37,893 nt of DNA from Fretibacterium sp. (lineage in GTDB: Bacteria > Synergistota > Synergistia > Synergistales > Aminobacteriaceae): contig JAFUYV010000263.1 in assembly GCA_017476945.1 (NCBI GenBank), positions 1-37,893 on the forward strand. Direction: 5' to 3'. Below are positions 21,336 to 32,005 of the stretch, in pieces (positions within the stretch are counted from its first letter, which is position 1; the number at the start of each line of letters is the position of its first letter). The notes below the pieces were generated by a model, which saw only the letters and a list, made by a program, of their open reading frames with translations, ran no database searches and was not told where the DNA came from. The position numbers and the translations under genes are program-made.

Positions 21336-22314
21336 CCTTCACGTAGTAGAAGTTTTTGTCCGGCAGGGTCCCGCCAACCGATCGGGGCTCGGCCTCGAAC
21401 AGCACCCGCAGATAGCCCTCCGCCGCGTCCTGCATGACCTGCCCCTCCAGCGCCGTGACGCCACAATGAGGAATCGCACGCTCCACGAGCAGGGCGTTGT
21501 CGAATATCCCGTGTTTCACGATGAGCGCGGCGGCCTCCGCCGGATGGGCGTTCACGTACTCCGCCGAGGCGCGCGCCTCCCGCAGGAAGCCGGCGACATC
21601 CGCTTCATGCGACTTAACGTAGCTCCTCCGGGCCGCGTTGACGCCCATGACAAGCTCGGAGCCGCTGCCCGCCTTTCTCCACTCCTCCGCCAGGCTCAAG
21701 GCCTCCCGCAGGCCGCCGGCCTTCGCTAACGCCGCGGCCGCAAAGGGATAGGGAAGCAGGCAAGCGTCGCCCTTTCCCGCAACGGTTTGTCCGCGGCGCG
21801 ATGCCACGAGATGGGACAAGACCTCAGCGTGCTCACTGAACCACTCAATGCGGCAGTCCTTCCCCGGCTCGAGGCCGTTTTGACGAAGAAGGTAATTTAA
21901 AGCAAATTCCGGCGTAGCCCCGCGCCCGGCGGCCAAAAGCGTCCTGCCCCGAAGGTCCGCAATGGAATGGATCTCATCACCCTTTTCAAGGATGGAGAGC
22001 GCCCCCAATGTATTGACGGAAAGCAGGCAGACGTCCATCTTGAGCCGGTTCCAAAGGATTGCCGCCATGTTGGTGGGCATTGCGGCGATATCCCCCTCAC
22101 CGCGCGCAAGGGCCGCGACCAGATCCTCCGGAGTTGAGGCGATGCGGAACGTATAACGCCTTGCTGTGTGTCCCTCAGCCGCATCCTCCATCAGCTTTGC
22201 CAGCCCCATGCCCGTCGGGCCCCTGAGGCAGAGGACACGTACTGGCTCCTCCGCCCGGCAGGTTCCACACAGAAAAATTAGCAGAAGTAATGCGACAGAC
22301 AGGCGTCTCATCAT
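21325..22314 (-). CDS. ABC transporter substrate-binding protein (SsuA/NMT1-like)
   Basis: A 329-residue secreted binding protein with a Sec signal peptide (about 1-21, LLLLIFLCGTCRAEE; the Cys before RAEE could also form a poor lipobox). Features are EGDIAAMPTNMAAIL and ADLRGRTLLAAGRGATPEF, the usual hinge segments of the NMT1/SsuA group. The ligand is unknown; the family binds sulfonates, nitrate, pyrimidines or other small anions and aromatics. Its ATG overlaps the stop of the DUF1858 gene as TAATG, so both are made together. Confidence 0.87.
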   Translation of the reverse strand: MMRRLSVALLLLIFLCGTCRAEEPVRVLCLRGPTGMGLAKLMEDAAEGHTARRYTFRIASTPEDLVAALARGEGDIAAMPTNMAAILWNRLKMDVCLLSVNTLGALSILEKGDEIHSIADLRGRTLLAAGRGATPEFALNYLLRQNGLEPGKDCRIEWFSEHAEVLSHLVASRRGQTVAGKGDACLLPYPFAAAALAKAGGLREALSLAEEWRKAGSGSELVMGVNAARRSYVKSHEADVAGFLREARASAEYVNAHPAEAAALIVKHGIFDNALLVERAIPHCGVTALEGQVMQDAAEGYLRVLFEAEPRSVGGTLPDKNFYYVKDAR

Positions 22315-22538
22315 TAGGCGGGCTGTTTCTCGCGGCCCGCCAGGTATTCCTGAATGGACGCTAGGACCTCATTCGCGTCCAGGCCATGAACCGCGCAGGC
22401 ATCCTCAAGGGATTCCCCAATGGACGACGGACACCCGACACAGTGCATCCCCGACTGCATCAGGACGTAGGCAATCCCCATATCGTGCTGGAGCATATCA
22501 CCCATTGTCGTCGCTTTCGTAATCTCAAAATCCGGCAT
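22314..22538 (-). CDS. DUF1858-family redox disulfide mini-protein
   Basis: This 74-residue protein carries the CxxC pair Cys33-Cys36 in MHCVGCPSS, typical of the DUF1858 / hybrid-cluster-protein-associated redox domain. The sequence around it (MGIAYVLMQSGMHCVGC) has the usual length and spacing. Family function is unproven. The ATG at 22538 has GGAGG nine to ten bases upstream. It overlaps the start of the ABC binding-protein gene. I see no hybrid cluster protein nearby. Confidence 0.85.
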   Translation of the reverse strand: MPDFEITKATTMGDMLQHDMGIAYVLMQSGMHCVGCPSSIGESLEDACAVHGLDANEVLASIQEYLAGREKQPA

Positions 22539-22583
22539 ACCCAATCCCTCCTGAAAAATGTAACTTGTTTTATCACTTGCCCT

Positions 22584-23897: not shown

Positions 23898-24485
23898 TTA
23901 ACCGGCGATTCTGACGCGGCCCTCATGTCTTGGCTTTGGGCTGGGGGCGGGGCCGTCGAGGTAGCCCAGCAGGACGAAGCAGCGCGCGATGTAACCCTGG
24001 GGGATGTCCCATTGAGCGATGAGCCGTTGGCCCTCGTCGCTTAAGAAGGTCTCCTCTCCCCGCGCAATGATGCAGGAGGCGAGGCCCAGCGACTGCGCCA
24101 TCAACACCATGTTCTCCGCGCAGCAGAAGGCGTCGGGGATGCTGTAAAGAAAGTTGGCCGGCGCAAAGACCACGCAGACGGAGGGGGCCCCATAGAACCC
24201 GCTCCTGAGTGTCGGGTCGTCGATGATGCTGGGCTGTTCGTGCGACACGTAGGAGCCTGCAAGGCTGCTGCGGTCAAAATGCGCGATGTTGAGCTTCCCG
24301 ATGGCCTCCGCCAGTTTCTCATCATGCACCCCGACGATGACGCTCCTCTGGCCTCCGCCGGCGTTGGGGGCCCATATCCCTGCCTCGATAACCTTTTCCA
24401 TGTCCTCCCGCGAAATCTGGCGCTCCTGATACTTTCGGATGGAGCGCCGCTCCCTCATCAAGTTCAACAGTTCCGTGCTGTCCAT
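23898..24485 (-). CDS. Nitroreductase-family flavoprotein of the ACGX peptide cluster
   Basis: A 195-residue FMN-binding oxidoreductase. RERRSIRKYQERQIS (about 11-25) and the APNAGGGQRSV segment (about 39-49) are the FMN-binding signatures; AENMVLMAQSLGLASC and the GYLDG end are also family-typical. It starts three bases after the radical SAM gene stop, so it belongs to the same operon. In RiPP clusters nitroreductase-like enzymes often oxidise or dehydrogenate the peptide (as in azole-forming clusters), but its substrate here is unknown. Confidence 0.9.
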   Translation of the reverse strand: MDSTELLNLMRERRSIRKYQERQISREDMEKVIEAGIWAPNAGGGQRSVIVGVHDEKLAEAIGKLNIAHFDRSSLAGSYVSHEQPSIIDDPTLRSGFYGAPSVCVVFAPANFLYSIPDAFCCAENMVLMAQSLGLASCIIARGEETFLSDEGQRLIAQWDIPQGYIARCFVLLGYLDGPAPSPKPRHEGRVRIAG

Positions 24486-24488
24486 CGT

Positions 24489-25520
24489 TTACACCTCTTT
24501 CCAGCACTGCGGGTCGGGCGCGTAAAAATCCCCCGCCCTCCCGCAGGCGACGGCCGGGCACCCCCGGCACCAGGCCAGCAGCTCGCACTTTGAGCATTTG
24601 CTGAATTTTTGATAATCACGGTAACGTTCCATCTCCGTGACCCACACGTCAGCGATGCGGTCCTCAAAGACGCTGCTCACCCTGCTGTTCTGAACTCTGC
24701 GGCAGGCGTACAGGTCCCCCGACGGCAGAATGGTCAGGTGTCCGTTGCCGCAGTTACACCCACCGTAGATCATGCCTGGCTGCGCGTCCTGGGGTATCTG
24801 GAACTCCCCGGTTTCGTACTTGTACAGCGTCCAGAGATGATCCTTCCTGTCGAACCAGGTCTCGCACCCCGCCGCCGCGTACTCTTTGAACTTTTTGTCG
24901 CAGGCCGCCAGCAGGGCGCGGTACTCCAGCGGCGCGACGCCGGTGCTCCTCTCCGCGCTCGTGGGGCAGTAGCGCGCGAAGGAGTACACGTCGGCCCCAT
25001 GTGACACAACCGTGTCAATGATGTCCGGGACCTCGCGAATATTGGCGCTGGACACCGTGGTCATAATAACGGAGCAGATGCCCGCCTCCTTGATGCGTGA
25101 GATTTTTGAGAGCGTGCAGTCAAAGGAGCCGGGCTTTCGGAACCAGTCGTGCGTCTCCCTCATACCGTCGATGGAGAGCTGGTATTTATCGCAGCCCATC
25201 TCCCGCAGGCGGGCACAGACCTCATCGTTCAGATGGAACGGATTTCCAAGAATGGCGAAGGGGATTTCCTGTTTCTTCAGGAGGGCGAGCAGCCTCCAGA
25301 ACCTGGGATGCAGAATGGGATCGCCGCCCGTGATGTAAAAATAAGGCTGACGGTTGTAGATTTCGCAGAAGTCCAGGCAGTTGGCGAGGACCTCCTGCAT
25401 CCCTTTCCAACTGACGGCCTCCGGCTTCCTTCCCTTATCCTCGGAGAAGATGTAGCAGTGCCGGCACCGCTGGTCGCAGTCGTCCGTGATATGCCATTGA
25501 AAGGAAAAATAGCGTTTCAT
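24489..25520 (-). CDS. Radical SAM/SPASM peptide maturase, ACGX system
   Basis: This 343-residue enzyme has the radical SAM cluster motif CX3CX2C at Cys15-Cys19-Cys22 (CDQRCRHCY), followed by GGDPILHPRF. The C-terminal SPASM region (about 250-343) has nine cysteines (CNCGNG, YACRR, KCSKC, WCRGC, VACG, QCW), enough for two auxiliary iron-sulfur clusters. It directly follows a gene for a peptide with ACGX repeats, matching the known 'ACGX system' family of maturases. The ATG at 25520 fits the family N-terminus (MKRYFSFQWHIT), though no strong ribosome site precedes it. The frame is open back to 25733, which would run through the precursor gene. Confidence 0.9.
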   Translation of the reverse strand: MKRYFSFQWHITDDCDQRCRHCYIFSEDKGRKPEAVSWKGMQEVLANCLDFCEIYNRQPYFYITGGDPILHPRFWRLLALLKKQEIPFAILGNPFHLNDEVCARLREMGCDKYQLSIDGMRETHDWFRKPGSFDCTLSKISRIKEAGICSVIMTTVSSANIREVPDIIDTVVSHGADVYSFARYCPTSAERSTGVAPLEYRALLAACDKKFKEYAAAGCETWFDRKDHLWTLYKYETGEFQIPQDAQPGMIYGGCNCGNGHLTILPSGDLYACRRVQNSRVSSVFEDRIADVWVTEMERYRDYQKFSKCSKCELLAWCRGCPAVACGRAGDFYAPDPQCWKEV

Positions 25521-25547
25521 ACCATGCTGTTGAAGGTTGAAAGCAGA

Positions 25548-25570
25548 CGCCCCGGCGCGTGGCCGGGGCG
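25548..25570 (-). terminator. Hairpin between RiPP precursor and maturase genes
   Basis: A perfect 9-bp stem CGCCCCGGC with a 5-base loop lies eight bases after the precursor stop and 28 bases before the maturase start. There is no long T run, so partial termination or message stabilisation is likelier than a full stop. Such a hairpin would give more precursor than enzyme. Confidence 0.6.
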
Positions 25571-25578
25571 AGGCTGTC

Positions 25579-25740
25579 TTACTTGCCCGCTCCGCACACG
25601 GAGGGCTTTTCTCCGCCGCAGGCCGATGGTTTGCCGCCGCCGCAAGCAGAGGGTTTCTCCCCGCCGCCGCACGCGGAGGGCTTGCCGCCGCTGCCGCAGG
25701 AGGAGCCGCCGTTCCAGTCCGCAAGATTTGCAAGTGCCAT
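25579..25740 (-). CDS. ACGX-repeat RiPP precursor peptide
   Basis: A 53-residue peptide starts at ATG 25740, with GGAGG nine bases upstream. The leader is short (MALANLADWN), followed by a glycine-rich core with five regularly spaced Cys-Gly units: SSCGSGGK, PSACGGGE, KPSACGGG, KPSACGGE and KPSVCGAG, ending in K. This is the ACGX-repeat type that pairs with radical SAM/SPASM maturases, and such a gene follows in the same direction. The mature product of this family is not known to me. Leader length and cleavage site cannot be told. Confidence 0.88.
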   Translation of the reverse strand: MALANLADWNGGSSCGSGGKPSACGGGEKPSACGGGKPSACGGEKPSVCGAGK

Positions 25741-25793: not shown

Positions 25794-25823
25794 ATCATAA
25801 ACGAATGAGGAAGCCCTGCGCAA
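25794..25823 (-). promoter_or_regulatory. Candidate promoter of the ACGX peptide operon
   Basis: Leftward, TTGCGC and TATGAT are separated by 18 bases, and lie 55-80 bases before the precursor ATG. It is divergent from the hxlR promoter. Confidence 0.5.
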
Positions 25824-25837
25824 GCAGGCAGTTTTTT

Positions 25838-25883
25838 GTAACCTGGTTACCTTCGGGTAACTTTTGTAAAAATTGAAGGTTAC
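25838..25883. promoter_or_regulatory. GTAACC/GGTTAC repeats, candidate HxlR operator
   Basis: The palindrome GTAACC-T-GGTTAC (25838-25850) is followed by GGTAAC (25856-25861) and another GGTTAC (25878-25883), just upstream of and overlapping the hxlR promoter. HxlR regulators bind such short inverted repeats near their own gene, so self-control and control of the RiPP operon are both plausible. Binding is inferred, not seen. Confidence 0.55.
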
Positions 25884-25933: not shown

Positions 25934-26266
25934 ATGCTGGCGAAAGAGGAACTGCCGGAGTGTCCTGTGGCGACGACTGTGCAGCTAATCGGGAGCAAGT
26001 GGAAGCTCCTGATACTTCGGAACCTGATGGCGCGTCCCTGGCGCTTCAACGAACTGCGCGGCAGCCTGCAGGGCATCAGTCAGAAGGTCCTGACGGACAG
26101 CCTGCGGGCCATGGCGGGCGACGGGCTGGTCAGCCGGACGGTCTACGCGGAGGTTCCAATCCGTGTGGAGTATGCGCTCACGGAGCTTGGCGAGACTCTG
26201 CGCCCTATCCTGAGGGCGATGGAACAGTGGGGAATGGAATATCAAAGACGGGTGAGGGCGAGCTGA
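25934..26266 (+). CDS. HxlR-family winged-helix transcriptional regulator
   Basis: A 110-residue winged-helix repressor/activator. The N-terminal CPVATTVQLIGSKWKLLILRNL with Cys10, and the RFNELRGSLQGISQKVLTDSLRAM recognition-helix segment, are diagnostic of HxlR. In B. subtilis relatives (HypR, YodB) the N-terminal Cys senses electrophiles or oxidants; here Cys10 is in the same place, so a thiol sensor is likely. Its stop overlaps the next start as TGATG, so it heads the flavin/macrodomain/sirtuin operon. The divergent RiPP promoter lies about 110 bases away. Confidence 0.93.
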   Translation: MLAKEELPECPVATTVQLIGSKWKLLILRNLMARPWRFNELRGSLQGISQKVLTDSLRAMAGDGLVSRTVYAEVPIRVEYALTELGETLRPILRAMEQWGMEYQRRVRAS

Positions 26267-26883
26267 TGGACGCTCCGACATGTCTGAAGAAATTGGAGCA
26301 CGTGGGGGTGCTGGCGTTCGCGACAGTGGACGGGCACGGCGCCCCGCAGGTGCGGTGCATCAGTGCCATCCACTACGAGCCGGATGCCCTTTACTTTTTT
26401 ACGGCCAGGGGCAAAAACTTCTGCAGGGAGCTGTTGCGGGACGGGCGTGTCCAGGTGTTGGCCTACACGATGTATAAGGAGATGATCCGCCTGTCGGGGA
26501 CCGCGAGGCGCGTGCCCGATGAGGAGCAGGCGGAGTGGCGCGACATGATTTTTGAGGAACAGCCCTATCTCTCCAACGTCTATCCCGGCGACACACGCGA
26601 TATCGGTGTCGTCTTCTGTATAAAGGATATGGCCATAGAATATTTCAACCTTGGGGTCTCCCCCATCTTCCGGGAAAGCTACGCTGTGGGCGGGGGGATG
26701 GTCGCGGGGAAAGGGTTTGCCATATTGGAGAGCTGCATCGGCTGCGGCACGTGCCGGCGCGTCTGCCCCCAGGACGCCATTGAGGAGGGCCGGCCTTACA
26801 GAATACGGCCGGAACACTGCCTGCACTGCGGAAACTGCTTTGAGAACTGCCCTGTTTCTGCCGTCGCCCGCCTGCCCAAGTGA
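26266..26883 (+). CDS. PNPOx-like flavin-binding protein fused to a 2[4Fe-4S] ferredoxin domain
   Basis: This 205-residue protein joins two domains. Residues about 1-140 are a split-barrel flavin-binding fold of the pyridoxamine-phosphate-oxidase type (LAFATVDGHGAPQVRCISAI, LYFFTARGKNFCREL). Residues about 155-205 have two full four-Cys cluster motifs, CIGCGTCRRVCP and CLHCGNCFENCP. This combination suggests an electron-transfer enzyme, from ferredoxin to flavin or the reverse. Such oxidoreductases occur near SirTM operons, but the substrate here is unknown. It overlaps the hxlR stop by one base. Confidence 0.88.
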   Translation: MDAPTCLKKLEHVGVLAFATVDGHGAPQVRCISAIHYEPDALYFFTARGKNFCRELLRDGRVQVLAYTMYKEMIRLSGTARRVPDEEQAEWRDMIFEEQPYLSNVYPGDTRDIGVVFCIKDMAIEYFNLGVSPIFRESYAVGGGMVAGKGFAILESCIGCGTCRRVCPQDAIEEGRPYRIRPEHCLHCGNCFENCPVSAVARLPK

Positions 26884-26894
26884 GGGAGACAGGC

Positions 26895-27725
26895 ATGGCC
26901 TACGAGCAAGACACACAATATCTCATAGAGGTCCTGCTGAAGGAGATGCCGGAGTACCGGCCCCAGGCCGCCGGGGCCCCGCAGTGGGCTGAGGGGCGGA
27001 GAAGGCTGCTTCGCGCCCTGATGAATGTCCGCCCGCCCCTCCCCCTCTCTCGGGAATTTCTGGAGGTGCAGGATCGGGTGCTCTCCAGGGAGCGGGAGGC
27101 GAAGGGCGTGGTGGACGTCATGGAGTTGCCTGTGACGGCCGCAAGTCCGCGCCTCTGTCTCTGGCAGGGGGATATCACACGGTTGAATTCCGGAGCAATC
27201 GTCAACGCCGCGAACAGCGCCCTGCTGGGGTGCTTCGTCCCCTGCCACGGGTGCATTGACAACGCCATCCACTCCGCGGCGGGCCTGCAGCTTCGCGATG
27301 AATGTTTCCGCCTCATGCAGAAACAGGGCCATGAAGAGCCGGCGGGCCGCGCCAAGCTGACGGGGGCTTATAACCTGCCCTGTCGTGGTGTCCTGCACAC
27401 GGTCGGTCCCATCGTTCAGGGGCCGCTCCGGCAGGACCATTGCGATGAACTGGCGTCGTGCTACCGTTCGTGCCTGGCGCTGGCGGCGGAGAAGGGGATC
27501 GGGAGCGTGGCCTTTTGCTGCATTTCGACAGGCGAGTTCCACTTCCCCAACGAGGAGGCCGCGAAGATCGCCGTGGAGACCGTCGTGGATTTTCTGAAAG
27601 ACAACAACTCCATTGAGCGGGTTATTTTTAACGTCTTTAAGGATGCCGATTATGAAATCTACCGTGCCCTGCTCGGGCCGGACTGTGAAGGGGGCGGCAA
27701 TTATGCGGACAAGGGCCGCGTATAA
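26895..27725 (+). CDS. Zinc-type macrodomain ADP-ribosyl hydrolase, SirTM-linked
   Basis: The protein has 276 residues: an N-terminal part of about 80 residues and then a macrodomain starting near 83 (LCLWQGDITRL). The segment IVNAANSALLGCFVPCHGCIDNAIH has the extra Cys/His set (GC...CHGC) that marks the Zn-containing SirTM-linked macrodomains of S. aureus and S. pyogenes. These remove ADP-ribose from the partner lipoyl protein. The ATG at 26895 was chosen because GGGAG lies a few bases upstream. The end overlaps the sirtuin gene by 23 bases, so both are expressed together. Confidence 0.94.
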   Translation: MAYEQDTQYLIEVLLKEMPEYRPQAAGAPQWAEGRRRLLRALMNVRPPLPLSREFLEVQDRVLSREREAKGVVDVMELPVTAASPRLCLWQGDITRLNSGAIVNAANSALLGCFVPCHGCIDNAIHSAAGLQLRDECFRLMQKQGHEEPAGRAKLTGAYNLPCRGVLHTVGPIVQGPLRQDHCDELASCYRSCLALAAEKGIGSVAFCCISTGEFHFPNEEAAKIAVETVVDFLKDNNSIERVIFNVFKDADYEIYRALLGPDCEGGGNYADKGRV

Positions 27726-28554
27726 TACGCCGGACGGGGTTGAGCGTCTCCGGGGGGAATTAAACTCTGCCAGTGCGGTCGTGCTTGGCGCGGGGGCGGG
27801 GCTGTCCACGTCTGCCGGGTTCACCTACGCGGGAGAACGTTTTGAGCGATATTTTCATGACTTCGAGGAGAAGTATGGCTTCCATGATATGTATATGGGA
27901 GGCTTCTACCCCTATGCAACGCTGGAGGAAAAGTGGGCGTATTGGAGTCGGAATATCTTCATCAACCGCTACGAGGACGCTCCATTCCCAGTCTACGATG
28001 ACCTGCTGCGGCTGGTGAAGGACAAGGATTATTTTGTGCTGACAACCAACGTGGATCATTGTTTTCAGAAGGCCGGCTTTGACAAAAAGCGCTTGTTCTA
28101 CACGCAGGGGGATTACGGCCTGTGGCAGTGCAGCGTCCCCTGCCATGAGAGGACCTATGACAACGAGGCAGTCGTGCGCCGCATGGTGGCGGAGCAGAGA
28201 GACATGCGCGTGCCCAGCGAACTCGTGCCCCTCTGCCCCGTCTGCGGGAAGCCCATGACGATGAACCTGAGGACGGACGATACCTTTGTGGAGGATGAGG
28301 GATGGCGCGCCGCGGCGGAACGCTATTCAGACTTCCTGAAAGACCATCGCGGGAAAAGGACGCTGTTCTGGGAGCTGGGCACGGGAATGAACACCCCGTC
28401 CATCATCAAGTTTCCCTTCTGGATGATGACGCATGAGTGGCCGGACGCCCGTTATGCCTGCGTCAACCTGGGCGAGGCTTATGCCCCCACTGAAATTGAA
28501 GCCAGGTCCATCTGCATCAACGAGGATATCGGGCGCGTGCTTGGAGAGCTGTGA
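27703..28554 (+). CDS. Class M sirtuin (SirTM), protein ADP-ribosyltransferase
   Basis: This 283-residue SIR2-fold protein has the NAD motif GAGAGLSTSAG (29-39), TTNVDH with Asn116, and a four-Cys zinc site (Cys143, Cys147, Cys178, Cys181). The catalytic His of deacetylase sirtuins (normally HG) is replaced by Gln135 in YTQGDYG. That exchange is the mark of the SirTM class, which transfers ADP-ribose to proteins rather than deacetylating them. It overlaps the macrodomain gene; AGGGGG precedes the ATG. The expected substrate, the lipoyl protein GcvH-L, is encoded 1.2 kb downstream on the opposite strand. Confidence 0.95.
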   Translation: MRTRAAYNTPDGVERLRGELNSASAVVLGAGAGLSTSAGFTYAGERFERYFHDFEEKYGFHDMYMGGFYPYATLEEKWAYWSRNIFINRYEDAPFPVYDDLLRLVKDKDYFVLTTNVDHCFQKAGFDKKRLFYTQGDYGLWQCSVPCHERTYDNEAVVRRMVAEQRDMRVPSELVPLCPVCGKPMTMNLRTDDTFVEDEGWRAAAERYSDFLKDHRGKRTLFWELGTGMNTPSIIKFPFWMMTHEWPDARYACVNLGEAYAPTEIEARSICINEDIGRVLGEL

Positions 28555-28810: not shown

Positions 28811-29770
28811 CTACTCCGTCCCCCAATTCTGCCAGCGGCGGAGCTCGTGCTGCTTCAGGTCTCCATGAGACATTTCGTCGATGGCGGCGTCTATACGCCG
28901 GAGCAGCAGCTCCTTATGCTCCGGCAGTTTCCCTTTGATGGGAAAGAGATTCGTCTTGTGCGTCGCGTTCCAGACGGTCGAGAGGGTCAGGCACGACAGG
29001 AGCTTCCGCCCCTCCTTCAGCGTCTCTAAAGAGCTCATGCGCTTGAACTCATGAGCGCGCACCCTCTCCGCCAGCCTCGCCCCCTTGAACAGCACCAGTG
29101 TTACAACCGTCAGCTCAAAGGGATGAGCGCCGTTTAAAAGGCTTGCCGTCTCGCTGACATGTCCGGCGGACATCTCCTGCCCTCCCAGCCCCAGCATGAT
29201 GTAGGCCGAGTAGCGCATCCCGGCGGTGTCCAGCGCGGCCATCGCGGCGGCGTTCTCCGCCCGCCCCACGCCCTTCTCCTGGTAGCGCAGCACGTCGTCC
29301 GAGCCGGACTCGATGCCGATGCACAGCCGGTCATACCCCGCCTGGCGAAGCGCTGACAGCTCCAGCGCGGTCTTGCGCAGCACGTCGTCCGCGCGGGCAA
29401 AGCAGGCAATGTACTCGCAGGAGGGAAAGGCGGCGTGTACCCTCTCAGCGATGGCCAGCAGCTTGTCCGTGGACAGGACGAAGGGGTTGCCCCCTGCCAG
29501 CAGGAAACGCCGGGGCGGCCGGGCGTCGTCCTCATGGATGAGGCGCAGCCGCTCGAGGTTCGCACCGATTTCCTCCAGGGACAGCTCGCGAAAAGTTACG
29601 CCCTGGTTCAGGTCGCAGTAAAGACAGCGCCGGTAGCTGCAACTCACGGTAACGGGGACCTGCACCGTGTAGGACTCGGCCATCGGCACGTAGTAGAAAA
29701 AACCGTACTCGCCGTAGACCTCGCGCTTGAGACGGCGGATATTCTGGATGCGCTTGGCGTCCTGTGACAT
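28811..29770 (-). CDS. Radical SAM protein with CX4CX2C motif, downstream of gcvH-L
   Basis: A 319-residue radical SAM enzyme. The cluster cysteines are Cys44, Cys49 and Cys52 in CSYRRCLYC, a CX4CX2C spacing instead of the usual CX3CX2C; I checked the codons. LAGGNPFVL (GGE-like SAM motif), GIESGSDDVLRYQEKG and MRYSAYIMLGLGG complete the core. No B12 domain or SPASM region is visible. It starts directly after the gcvH-L stop, so it is co-transcribed with lipoyl genes. A role in modifying the lipoyl protein or making lipoate is an inference only. Confidence 0.88.
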   Translation of the reverse strand: MSQDAKRIQNIRRLKREVYGEYGFFYYVPMAESYTVQVPVTVSCSYRRCLYCDLNQGVTFRELSLEEIGANLERLRLIHEDDARPPRRFLLAGGNPFVLSTDKLLAIAERVHAAFPSCEYIACFARADDVLRKTALELSALRQAGYDRLCIGIESGSDDVLRYQEKGVGRAENAAAMAALDTAGMRYSAYIMLGLGGQEMSAGHVSETASLLNGAHPFELTVVTLVLFKGARLAERVRAHEFKRMSSLETLKEGRKLLSCLTLSTVWNATHKTNLFPIKGKLPEHKELLLRRIDAAIDEMSHGDLKQHELRRWQNWGTE

Positions 29771-30211
29771 TTAGTGCCGTGCCGCCAGCCTCGCGGCGTG
29801 AGCGGTTGAATGTTTGAGATAAAGTTTATAGGCCTCCACGTCCATCAGCGCGTCCAGCCCCTGCAGGGCGCTTTTTGCCGGCTCCGCGGGTTCGATCTCG
29901 ATCAGCCAGCCCTCTCCAAAGGGATCGTCGTTCACAAGGCCGGGGGCCTCCGCGACGGCCGGATTGACCCTAATGACGCGGCCGGAGACCGGAGCGTTTA
30001 AATCGCTGACGGCCTTGGTCGCCTCAAGGGAGCCGAAGGGCTTTCCCGCCGTGACCCCGGTGCCCACCTCCGGCAGATCGATGGCGACGACATCCCCTAA
30101 CGCGGACTGCGAGTAATCGTCAATGCCCACCCGCACGCGCTCTCCGCAGCGCATGGCCCATTCGTTGGTTTTTGTGTAGAGCACCTCAGAGCTGAAAAAT
30201 GGCGCACGCAT
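29771..30211 (-). CDS. GcvH-like lipoyl protein (GcvH-L), expected SirTM substrate
   Basis: A 146-residue lipoyl carrier of the glycine-cleavage H-protein family. The lipoylation lysine is Lys66 in SLEATKAVSDLNAPVSGRV. The rest of the H fold is present (GIDDYSQSALGDVVAIDLPEVG). The C-terminus runs on for about 20 residues (LYLKHSTAHAARLAARH). No other glycine-cleavage genes (gcvP, gcvT, lpd) are nearby. In SirTM operons of S. aureus and S. pyogenes the GcvH-L protein is ADP-ribosylated only when lipoylated, and the macrodomain reverses this. The ATG overlaps the lipoate ligase stop as TGATG. Confidence 0.93.
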   Translation of the reverse strand: MRAPFFSSEVLYTKTNEWAMRCGERVRVGIDDYSQSALGDVVAIDLPEVGTGVTAGKPFGSLEATKAVSDLNAPVSGRVIRVNPAVAEAPGLVNDDPFGEGWLIEIEPAEPAKSALQGLDALMDVEAYKLYLKHSTAHAARLAARH

Positions 30212-31014
30212 CAAAACTCTCCTCCTGTCTCCAATTCATCGTAACGTCCCTCGTCGTTCCAGGTCCGGCTCCTGTACTTTAACTCCGCAAGCTTCCGAAC
30301 CGCCCGCTCATCCTGCGCGGACAGCCTGTAACTTTTCGAGTGAATGAAGGGCGTGCCCTGCCTCCGGAACATCTCCCACAGGAGCGCCATGAACTCCTCC
30401 GTGTCCGCCGCCCGCGGAAGAAGGGGCTTCAAGTTTCCCACACGGGCCCGCACCGATTTTACACCATGTCGGCGGAGTTTTGCGTCGGGGACGTTCAGGG
30501 CCTGGGCGAGCGCGTCGAGGTCGCAGTCGAAGAGCAGCGTCCCGTGACAGAGAAGGACCCCGTTGTGCCGGTGCTGTGCCATGCCGGAGACCTTGCGTCC
30601 TTCCACGGCGATGTCGTTGCCGCCGCGGGAGAAATCGGCGCGAACCCCCAGGGAGTCCAGCGCCCGGATCAGCTTGTCCGCGAAGAAGGCGAAATCATAT
30701 CCCTGCTGATCCGGCACGATGAAGCTGTAATTGACGTTGCCCAGGTCGTGATAGACCGCGCCCCCGCCGGAGTTCCGGCGCACGACGGGAAGGCCCCGGG
30801 CCTGGACGAAGGCGGCGTTGACCTCGGAGGCCGCGTCCTGAAAGCGTCCAATGATGATGGAGGGCGCGTTTCGCCACAGCATGAAGAATTCCTCGTTGCC
30901 GAGGGCGGCGCGGCGGCATAAATATTCCTCAAGGGCCAGATTATACTGCGGCTCCACGCTGCCCGTCTCAAGGAGACATTGAACGGCGTGGGCCTCCCGT
31001 GCATCATTCCCCAT
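30211..31014 (-). CDS. Lipoate-protein ligase A (LplA2-like)
   Basis: It activates lipoate with ATP and attaches it to the lipoyl lysine. The BPL/LplA fold shows RRNSGGGAVYHDLGNVNYSF (79-98) and the catalytic-lysine motif GRKVSGMAQ with Lys141, then HGTLLFDCDL. The C-terminal segment KYRSRTWNDEG resembles the small LplA accessory domain. The length is 267 residues from the ATG at 31014; the frame is open to 31146 but that would overlap the preceding gene deeply. It overlaps gcvH-L by one base and the preceding gene by 11, so the order unknown protein, ligase, carrier, radical SAM is one operon. Confidence 0.92.
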   Translation of the reverse strand: MGNDAREAHAVQCLLETGSVEPQYNLALEEYLCRRAALGNEEFFMLWRNAPSIIIGRFQDAASEVNAAFVQARGLPVVRRNSGGGAVYHDLGNVNYSFIVPDQQGYDFAFFADKLIRALDSLGVRADFSRGGNDIAVEGRKVSGMAQHRHNGVLLCHGTLLFDCDLDALAQALNVPDAKLRRHGVKSVRARVGNLKPLLPRAADTEEFMALLWEMFRRQGTPFIHSKSYRLSAQDERAVRKLAELKYRSRTWNDEGRYDELETGGEF

Positions 31015-32005
31015 CCGACGCGTCGGGCCGGAGGATACGCACGGTCTCCTCCTGGAACCAGTCATAAATTGTGCGCTTCTGTTCCTTCTGGTTGCGCATC
31101 CGCTCAATACTCGTGCCGATAAGGTACAGGGGGTTGGCCGGGGCAATCAAATCATGCCCCCAGCGCCGCAGCGTCGCCGTGAGCTCGTCCAGCTCGGCCT
31201 CCGTGTCCGTGACGAGGCACAGCATCGTCCAGTCCTCTTGGTCGGAGTGGTCGAAATCGAACCACCCGGGAAGGTAGATACGCCGCTGCCCCATCAGAAA
31301 GACGTGCAGCTTGCCGATGAAGGGCAGCAGGTCCTCCGGCCGTCCCGTGACCCTGCGGGCAAAGAGGGGATCGACGTCGACAAATCGGAAACGGTCGCTC
31401 TCTATCTGTTCGAACTTTCGGTAGTGGTCGAAATCGGCGCGGCTTCGCAGGACGAGGTCCACCGTCAGTGTTCCGTGCGGCGCGCGCTCCGTCTCCGCCC
31501 AACGGTCCAGGCCCGCCTGTCCCGGCGCCGGGAGTTTCCGCGCCTCAAAATCGCAGTTCGGGAACGCCTCGACAAAGGACTTCACGATGGGGGCGTCCGG
31601 CCACACAGCGCGGAGTCTCTCCCCCTCGAACCTGAAGTATTCTCCGTCGGGCAGGCACGGCACGACGGGGAACGTCTCGCGCGTCGTGAGCTCCTTGATG
31701 CCCCAATCCGTCACGAAAGCCCGGTCCAAGAGCTGTATCATGCGGTTAAGCTCCAGCATCTCACGGGCGCGGGCCGCGTCGATGAGGACCTCCCCCACAG
31801 AGGGCGCGGGCACGCCCATCTCCTGCGACACGCGCTCCCGCGTGCGGATGCCCTGCGGCGTGAGGGTGTAGCCGCCGGACAGCGGCATCAGGCTGCCGGA
31901 CGCGGCGAGCGGCTTCAAGCCGCTGGGGTCGTCCCCAGCGAGAAGGACCGTCTCCTCGTCCCAGCAGGGCAGCTCATGGCTGAAAAGCAGCAGCAAATTT
32001 TCCAT
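31004..32005 (-). CDS. Unknown protein heading the lipoyl operon
   Basis: I do not recognise this 333-residue soluble protein. There is no signal peptide, membrane helix or cysteine cluster. The N-terminal 70 residues include GGYTLTPQGIRTRERVSQE, somewhat like a winged helix. The middle is rich in aromatic and acidic residues (ERLRAVWPDAPIVKSF, DRFRFVDVDPLF), and the C-terminus is YDWFQEETVRILRPD. The ATG follows AGGAGG by nine bases. It overlaps the lipoate ligase gene by 11 bases and begins the operon, so it probably takes part in the same process. It may be a regulator or an extra transferase; both are guesses. Confidence 0.75.
   Translation of the reverse strand: MENLLLLFSHELPCWDEETVLLAGDDPSGLKPLAASGSLMPLSGGYTLTPQGIRTRERVSQEMGVPAPSVGEVLIDAARAREMLELNRMIQLLDRAFVTDWGIKELTTRETFPVVPCLPDGEYFRFEGERLRAVWPDAPIVKSFVEAFPNCDFEARKLPAPGQAGLDRWAETERAPHGTLTVDLVLRSRADFDHYRKFEQIESDRFRFVDVDPLFARRVTGRPEDLLPFIGKLHVFLMGQRRIYLPGWFDFDHSDQEDWTMLCLVTDTEAELDELTATLRRWGHDLIAPANPLYLIGTSIERMRNQKEQKRTIYDWFQEETVRILRPDASDGE

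Follow-up and report, generated by a model that had tools for sequence, protein, structure and literature searches.

ACGX-type radical SAM peptide genes of Fretibacterium in a conserved redox and ADP-ribosylation gene set: a possible cassette for intracellular thiol/electrophile stress

Several described systems come close to parts of the locus considered here. Radical SAM/SPASM maturases encoded beside Cys-Gly repeat peptides have been named from genome comparison, as the earlier note on this DNA said, and are covered by NCBIfam TIGR04340 ('radical SAM/SPASM domain protein, ACGX system'), the adjoining peptides by TIGR04341 (target_ACGX); full-text literature searches found no mention of TIGR04340 and no ACGX product structure, in keeping with the note, which knew of none. 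The maturase PapB cross-links Cys to Asp or Glu in Cys-X3-Asp/Glu motifs (PMC9413430). In Bacillus subtilis the HxlR-family regulators HypR, YodB and CatR respond to HOCl, quinones and diamide via a conserved N-terminal cysteine and regulate reductases, YodC and HypO among them, and azo-/nitroreductases under regulators of this family detoxify quinone and diamide (PMC6943732). Class M sirtuins (SirTMs) transfer ADP-ribose to protein, with lipoylated GcvH-L as substrate (Rack et al., PMC4518038), the only known SirTM target according to a 2024 study that leaves others open (PMC11490716), and their pairing with a zinc macrodomain protein (Zn-Macro) has been tied to oxidative stress in other systems (PMC4518038, PMC11490716). 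The known extended SirTM operon of Lactobacillales and Staphylococcaceae consists of GcvH-L, LplA2, SirTM, Zn-Macro, OYE and LLM, and the SirTM papers listed by full-text search contain no mention of radical SAM. Within a 37,893-nucleotide contig of Fretibacterium sp. (JAFUYV010000263.1, hereafter the window) the earlier note had recognized a three-gene cluster of precursor, maturase and nitroreductase. These three genes are in place, but the note had missed a divergent half reaching to position 28554 and encoding an HxlR regulator, a PNPOx-ferredoxin fusion, Zn-Macro and SirTM. The ACGX pair usually sits in this larger conserved gene set, and it is the neighbourhood that is new, no description of the wider HxlR/PNPOx-ferredoxin/SirTM/Zn-Macro cassette having turned up in the literature searched.

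The maturase (24489–25520, minus strand; 343 residues, PF04055 and PF13186) matches TIGR04340 over residues 4–343 with 600.3 bits, well over the curated cut-off of 400. Its AdoMet-cluster cysteines C15/C19/C22 (CX3CX2C) are invariant among homologues, and nine further cysteines lie beyond residue 250, exactly as had been counted from the translation, eight of them conserved across 45 homologues. Residue 260 is glycine in the window where nearly all homologues carry Cys260 (GGCNCGNCH), and an extra Cys326 occupies a position where the consensus is serine. The second-best family is SbtM (TIGR04082), a predicted thio(seleno)oxazole maturase, but its 159 bits fall far below the cut-off of 350 and no evidence for selenocysteine was seen; a literature search on selenobiotics and SbtM returned nothing relevant. 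The PapB model scores lower still (56.3 bits against the NF047865 cut-off of 340). A fold search with the AlphaFold model had SkfB as its best match and, near the top, also SuiB and the anaerobic sulfatase maturase; because the model is of moderate confidence (pLDDT 75.5, with the SPASM part near 50) this says just that the enzyme has a SPASM-type peptide maturase fold. A reading as a defence system was discarded, PADLOC showing generic viperin-like radical SAM similarity alone, at no more than 50 bits.

The precursor, MALANLADWNGGSSCGSGGKPSACGGGEKPSACGGGKPSACGGEKPSVCGAGK, lies at 25579–25740 (minus strand) behind a GGAGG ribosome site and has 53 residues, with a leader (MALANLADWN) whose MAL.NL..W-type pattern is common to 70 homologues, followed by the five Cys-Gly units that the note had pointed out; the spacing of the DNA repeat copies is 24, 24 and 27 nt. 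The repeat content is not a matter of chance, since among 639 stop-to-stop frames of 30–200 residues in the window the precursor alone has five or more CG, and shuffling of its own residues yields five CG in 0.1% of trials. As an ACGX peptide it is nonetheless only partly true to its name: Cys-Gly repeats are present, but they read SCGS, ACGG, ACGG, ACGG and VCGA, so that the strict unit occurs in three of five. Its TIGR04341 score (15.2 bits, E 0.025) is under the cut-off of 28, compared with 41–119 bits for nine precursors of other loci, and its place in the family is given by context, namely the adjoining TIGR04340 maturase, the shared leader and the repeats. With the maturase clear and the peptide sub-threshold, the pair is on sequence grounds counted as a member of the already named TIGR04340/TIGR04341 family. 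The 460 cysteines of 70 other precursors are preceded by Ala in 97% and followed by Gly in 99%, making Ala-Cys-Gly the near-invariant part of the compared precursors, and the residue at +4 is Asp in 50%, Cys in 44% and Glu in 1%. The window precursor is the most degenerate of the 71 compared: it lacks the ACGxACG (CX3C) doublet, the sole such case, and carries an acidic residue at +4 of one cysteine in five.

These figures bear directly on what the maturase makes of the peptide. Some modification at the Cys-Gly units is likely, and a loss of 2 Da per cysteine through thioether formation, the mass change that the earlier note proposed to look for, is possible. A specific version would have PapB-like thioether rings from Cys to +4 (Cys-X3-Asp/Glu), making the product a ranthipeptide or sactipeptide that is secreted as an antibacterial or signalling peptide. 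The +4 register of the 70 homologous precursors, the same register that PapB links (PMC9413430), and the appearance of SkfB, SuiB and the sulfatase maturase in the fold search speak in its favour. This register, which would favour a thioether in the relatives, is almost absent from the window precursor and also fails in that of a Roseburia locus (L016), where Asp is missing in four of five repeats; since these two precursors are largely without it, the CX3D thioether was not adopted as settled chemistry. Taken together with a maturase that scores higher against SbtM than against PapB, and with neighbourhoods that hold no fixed exporter or protease, this leaves a secreted ranthipeptide unlikely.

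Directly 3' of the precursor gene lies an intercistronic hairpin (25548–25570, minus strand; 9 bp, all GC; −25.6 kcal/mol), and hairpins like it stand behind nearly all homologous precursor genes (median over loci −23.5 kcal/mol in 45 nt), as expected if more peptide than maturase is to be made. At the other end of the peptide operon its last gene (23898–24485, minus strand) encodes an FMN nitroreductase-family protein of 195 residues (PF00881), the ATG of which (24485) follows three bases beyond the maturase stop (24489), as had been read from the letters. A DUF1858 'hybrid cluster protein-associated redox disulfide' protein is encoded two genes away from it (22314–22544, minus strand).

The nitroreductase invites a role in maturation, for instance as an azoline-type dehydrogenase acting on heterocycles made at Cys-Gly by the radical SAM enzyme. 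McbC-type nitroreductase-fold FMN enzymes oxidize azolines in azole peptides, the named maturase family next in line, SbtM, is annotated as a thio(seleno)oxazole maturase, and the nitroreductase gene directly adjoins in 50 of 80 informative loci. Comparison of 82 loci nevertheless shows it to be replaced or missing in 30: it is present in 52, an unrelated PIG3-like zinc-type quinone reductase takes its place in 21 (about a quarter), and nine have neither. Mapped onto the maturase tree, this three-state label switches at least 21 times. Such free exchange for an unrelated fold makes a maturation enzyme unlikely, so that the tailoring function is decidedly improbable and an obligatory one was rejected; the gene does adjoin, as the earlier note had it, but is probably not a fixed part of peptide processing. 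Considering also the azo-/nitroreductases under HxlR control in B. subtilis (PMC6943732), a detoxifying or electron-handling enzyme in the same regulon is more likely.

A regulator of this kind is encoded divergently. The first of four overlapping plus-strand genes that together form an operon (25934–28554) pointing away from the peptide operon encodes a HxlR/DUF24 (MarR-type) protein (25934–26266; 110 residues, PF01638), whose nearest solved structure is YybR (HypR) and whose single cysteine, Cys10, is invariant in 63 of 63 homologues; the domain and its conserved N-terminal cysteine place it with HxlR/HypR, thiol sensing itself being putative. Like the HypR/YodB regulons of B. subtilis, the locus combines such a regulator with reductases that it would control, and it differs from them in that the putative regulator adjoins a RiPP pair and SirTM/Zn-Macro. 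Comparison with homologous promoters points to a putative precursor promoter, TTGCGC-18-TATGAT (25794–25823, minus strand), at whose −35 box a degenerate candidate operator, CTGCCTGCTT (25822–25831, minus strand), overlaps. Its conserved form, GTGCGTACTT, is found in 48 of 56 HxlR–precursor intergenic regions, just upstream of the −10, with TATAAT-like boxes behind it at −35/−10 spacing, and of the other eight regions seven have one mismatch and the window two, the most degenerate site of the set. Upstream of the operator an exact palindrome, GTTAC-N6-GTAAC (25846–25861, minus strand), is present, and the same or close forms lie upstream of the conserved site at homologous loci. These conserved promoter sites, by their sequence and position, are good candidates for the HxlR operator, and the precursor-promoter site fits HxlR control. 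With both operator and precursor the most degenerate of their sets, the window copy may be decaying or specialized.

The regulator stop is overlapped (ATGA) by the gene for a PNPOx flavoprotein domain fused to a 2[4Fe-4S] ferredoxin (26266–26883, plus strand; 205 residues), the eight cluster cysteines of which are invariant in 56 of 56 homologues. Next come a predicted ADP-ribosyl hydrolase of the Zn-Macro type (26880–27725, plus strand), matching 8rsi, 5kiv and NF003163 with 273, 226 and 337 bits, respectively, and possessing the eight-residue C-X4-H-X-C zinc loop (C118-X4-H123-X-C125) found in 35 of 35 homologues, and a SirTM of the protein ADP-ribosyltransferase type (27703–28554, plus strand; 5a3a, 234.7 bits), the 5' end of which the macrodomain gene overlaps. 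In alignment with 5a3a, QG replaces the catalytic HG, as it does in 48 of 48 homologues, identifying a class M sirtuin. In some Lachnospiraceae two or three SIR2-like genes stand in tandem that are only 33–37% identical to SirTM (genome G200, contig C14:36979–39522; also G110, G121 and G105), possibly a further sirtuin subgroup.

How regularly these genes accompany the ACGX pair was assessed in a one-genome-per-species collection, in which 504 stretches encode maturase relatives; the best 80 of the 504, nearly all from Bacillota records, were compared, the set of 82 loci including the window's own copy (L001). Among the 49 loci with at least 5 kb of flank on both sides, a divergent HxlR gene is present in 43, a nitroreductase or zinc-type (MDR) quinone reductase in 45, PNPOx-ferredoxin in 33, SirTM in 32 and a macrodomain in 23, and the window itself has all parts. 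No fixed transporter, exporter or protease was seen among the neighbour gene clusters, part of which were identified by family search, a finding that fits the remark in the earlier note that the product may stay in the cell. The outer neighbours of the window lie beyond this set: its ABC substrate protein and a second radical SAM protein (rSAM2) have no match in any compared locus, and for GH3 the sole match is the window's own copy. SirTM and the macrodomain are missing from about a third to half of the full-flank loci, and 16 of 19 ACGX genomes lacking a local SirTM have one elsewhere, so that the SirTM link is an association and not a fixed part. The association extends to whole genomes: among 150 Lachnospiraceae, where SirTM is common in general (69/150) and TIGR04340 occurs in 21, SirTM is found in 18 of 21 ACGX carriers and 51 of 129 others (Fisher p 9e-5), and close PNPOx-ferredoxin orthologues in 10 of 21 and 4 of 129 (p 2e-7), kinship making both p values optimistic.

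In the window's own order TIGR04340 exceeds its cut-off in 2 of 61 genomes, the sole two that also have PNPOx-ferredoxin, and in none of three other genomes of the genus, where rSAM2, GcvH and LplA are found at 84, 72 and 58–65% identity with no cassette beside them. Given this patchy distribution next to shared genus neighbours, the cassette was probably acquired by transfer; the same identities make contamination of the bin an unlikely explanation. Two ACGX loci labelled Planctomycetota (L051, a Candidatus Brocadia MAG) and Bacteroidota (L039, a Bacteroides MAG) group inside Bacillota on the maturase tree and may stem from mislabelling or from contaminated bins. In one genome of the window's genus that lacks ACGX (L102), a Macro–SirTM pair stands behind an Rrf2-like regulator ORF in place of HxlR, so that the pair may move between stress regulators.

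Convergent to SirTM, at 28811–32005 (minus strand), lie the genes for rSAM2, a canonical GcvH, a lipoate-protein ligase and a 333-residue ORF (31004–32005, minus strand) with no Pfam or NCBIfam match. GcvH (29771–30214, minus strand) and the adjacent LplA (30211–31146, minus strand) are 1.2 kb from the SirTM/Macro genes, an arrangement raising the serious alternative that in the window SirTM acts on the nearby GcvH. Its fuller form is that SirTM and Zn-Macro serve lipoylation in the extended-operon style of Streptococcus and Staphylococcus, the ACGX pair being a mere neighbour, and lipoylated GcvH-L is after all the only known SirTM substrate (PMC4518038, PMC11490716). Yet this GcvH scores as the canonical type (117.8 bits, cut-off 115.85) and falls short of the H-like model (53.5 of 144), same-genus genomes with rSAM2-GcvH-LplA lack an adjoining SirTM, and GcvH and LplA have no match in any other compared ACGX locus, where SirTM recurs. 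We consider a lipoylation role quite possible, while leaning against it. Like the extended operon, the cassette assembles SirTM, Zn-Macro and two oxidoreductases round a possible sulfur-bearing small carrier and has a link to stress, and it differs in that this carrier may be a radical SAM-modified Cys peptide. In a bolder, and improbable, proposal the modified ACGX peptide would itself be the SirTM/Zn-Macro substrate, a ribosomally made cytoplasmic thiol carrier switched by ADP-ribosylation under a thiol-sensing HxlR, in a role like that of lipoylated GcvH-L in the Streptococcus/Staphylococcus operon.

The reading that we tentatively prefer, at a little short of an even chance, is of an ACGX-family RiPP cassette for an intracellular thiol/electrophile-stress response. 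It draws on gene content, family membership, synteny, promoter sites, the hairpin and diagnostic residues. An HxlR repressor of the HypR kind, sensing through a single cysteine, would hold down both divergent operons until thiol-reactive stress oxidizes or modifies it and both are turned on. From one operon the Cys-Gly repeat peptide would be made in excess over the maturase and oxidatively modified by it at its Cys units, with the nitro- or quinone reductase alongside; from the other, the flavin-ferredoxin protein could feed electrons to maturase or reductase, and the SirTM/Zn-Macro pair would write and erase ADP-ribose. The modified peptide would most likely be redox-active or electrophile-trapping and kept in the cytoplasm. 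That both of the reductases that replace each other belong to the nitroreductase/quinone-reductase families was counted in favour of such a stress role. A metal- or cluster-binding thiol peptide, comparable to a metallothionein or metallochaperone, could also account for the 4–15 cysteines in most of these short precursors and for the PNPOx-ferredoxin neighbour, and some precursors have weak, sub-cut-off matches to the methanobactin-like MovA; as the HxlR-type regulator and the quinone and nitro reductases indicate the sensing of electrophiles rather than of metals, it appears very improbable.

The conserved set around the pair, with its repressor for thiol stress, its reductases and its switch based on ADP-ribosylation, suggests that the probable task of the peptide is intracellular, in redox stress, and not that of an antibiotic; part of the case for an intracellular role is the lack of neighbouring exporters, genes for which could lie in other parts of the genome. 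ACGX peptides are widespread in gut Clostridia, as the 504 stretches with maturase relatives, at one genome per species, attest, and no product or role for them was found in the literature searched. The cassette context offers a testable function in redox or electrophile stress, one for which an assay of antibiotic activity may be the wrong test, and SirTM outside the lipoyl operon would gain a concrete candidate substrate.
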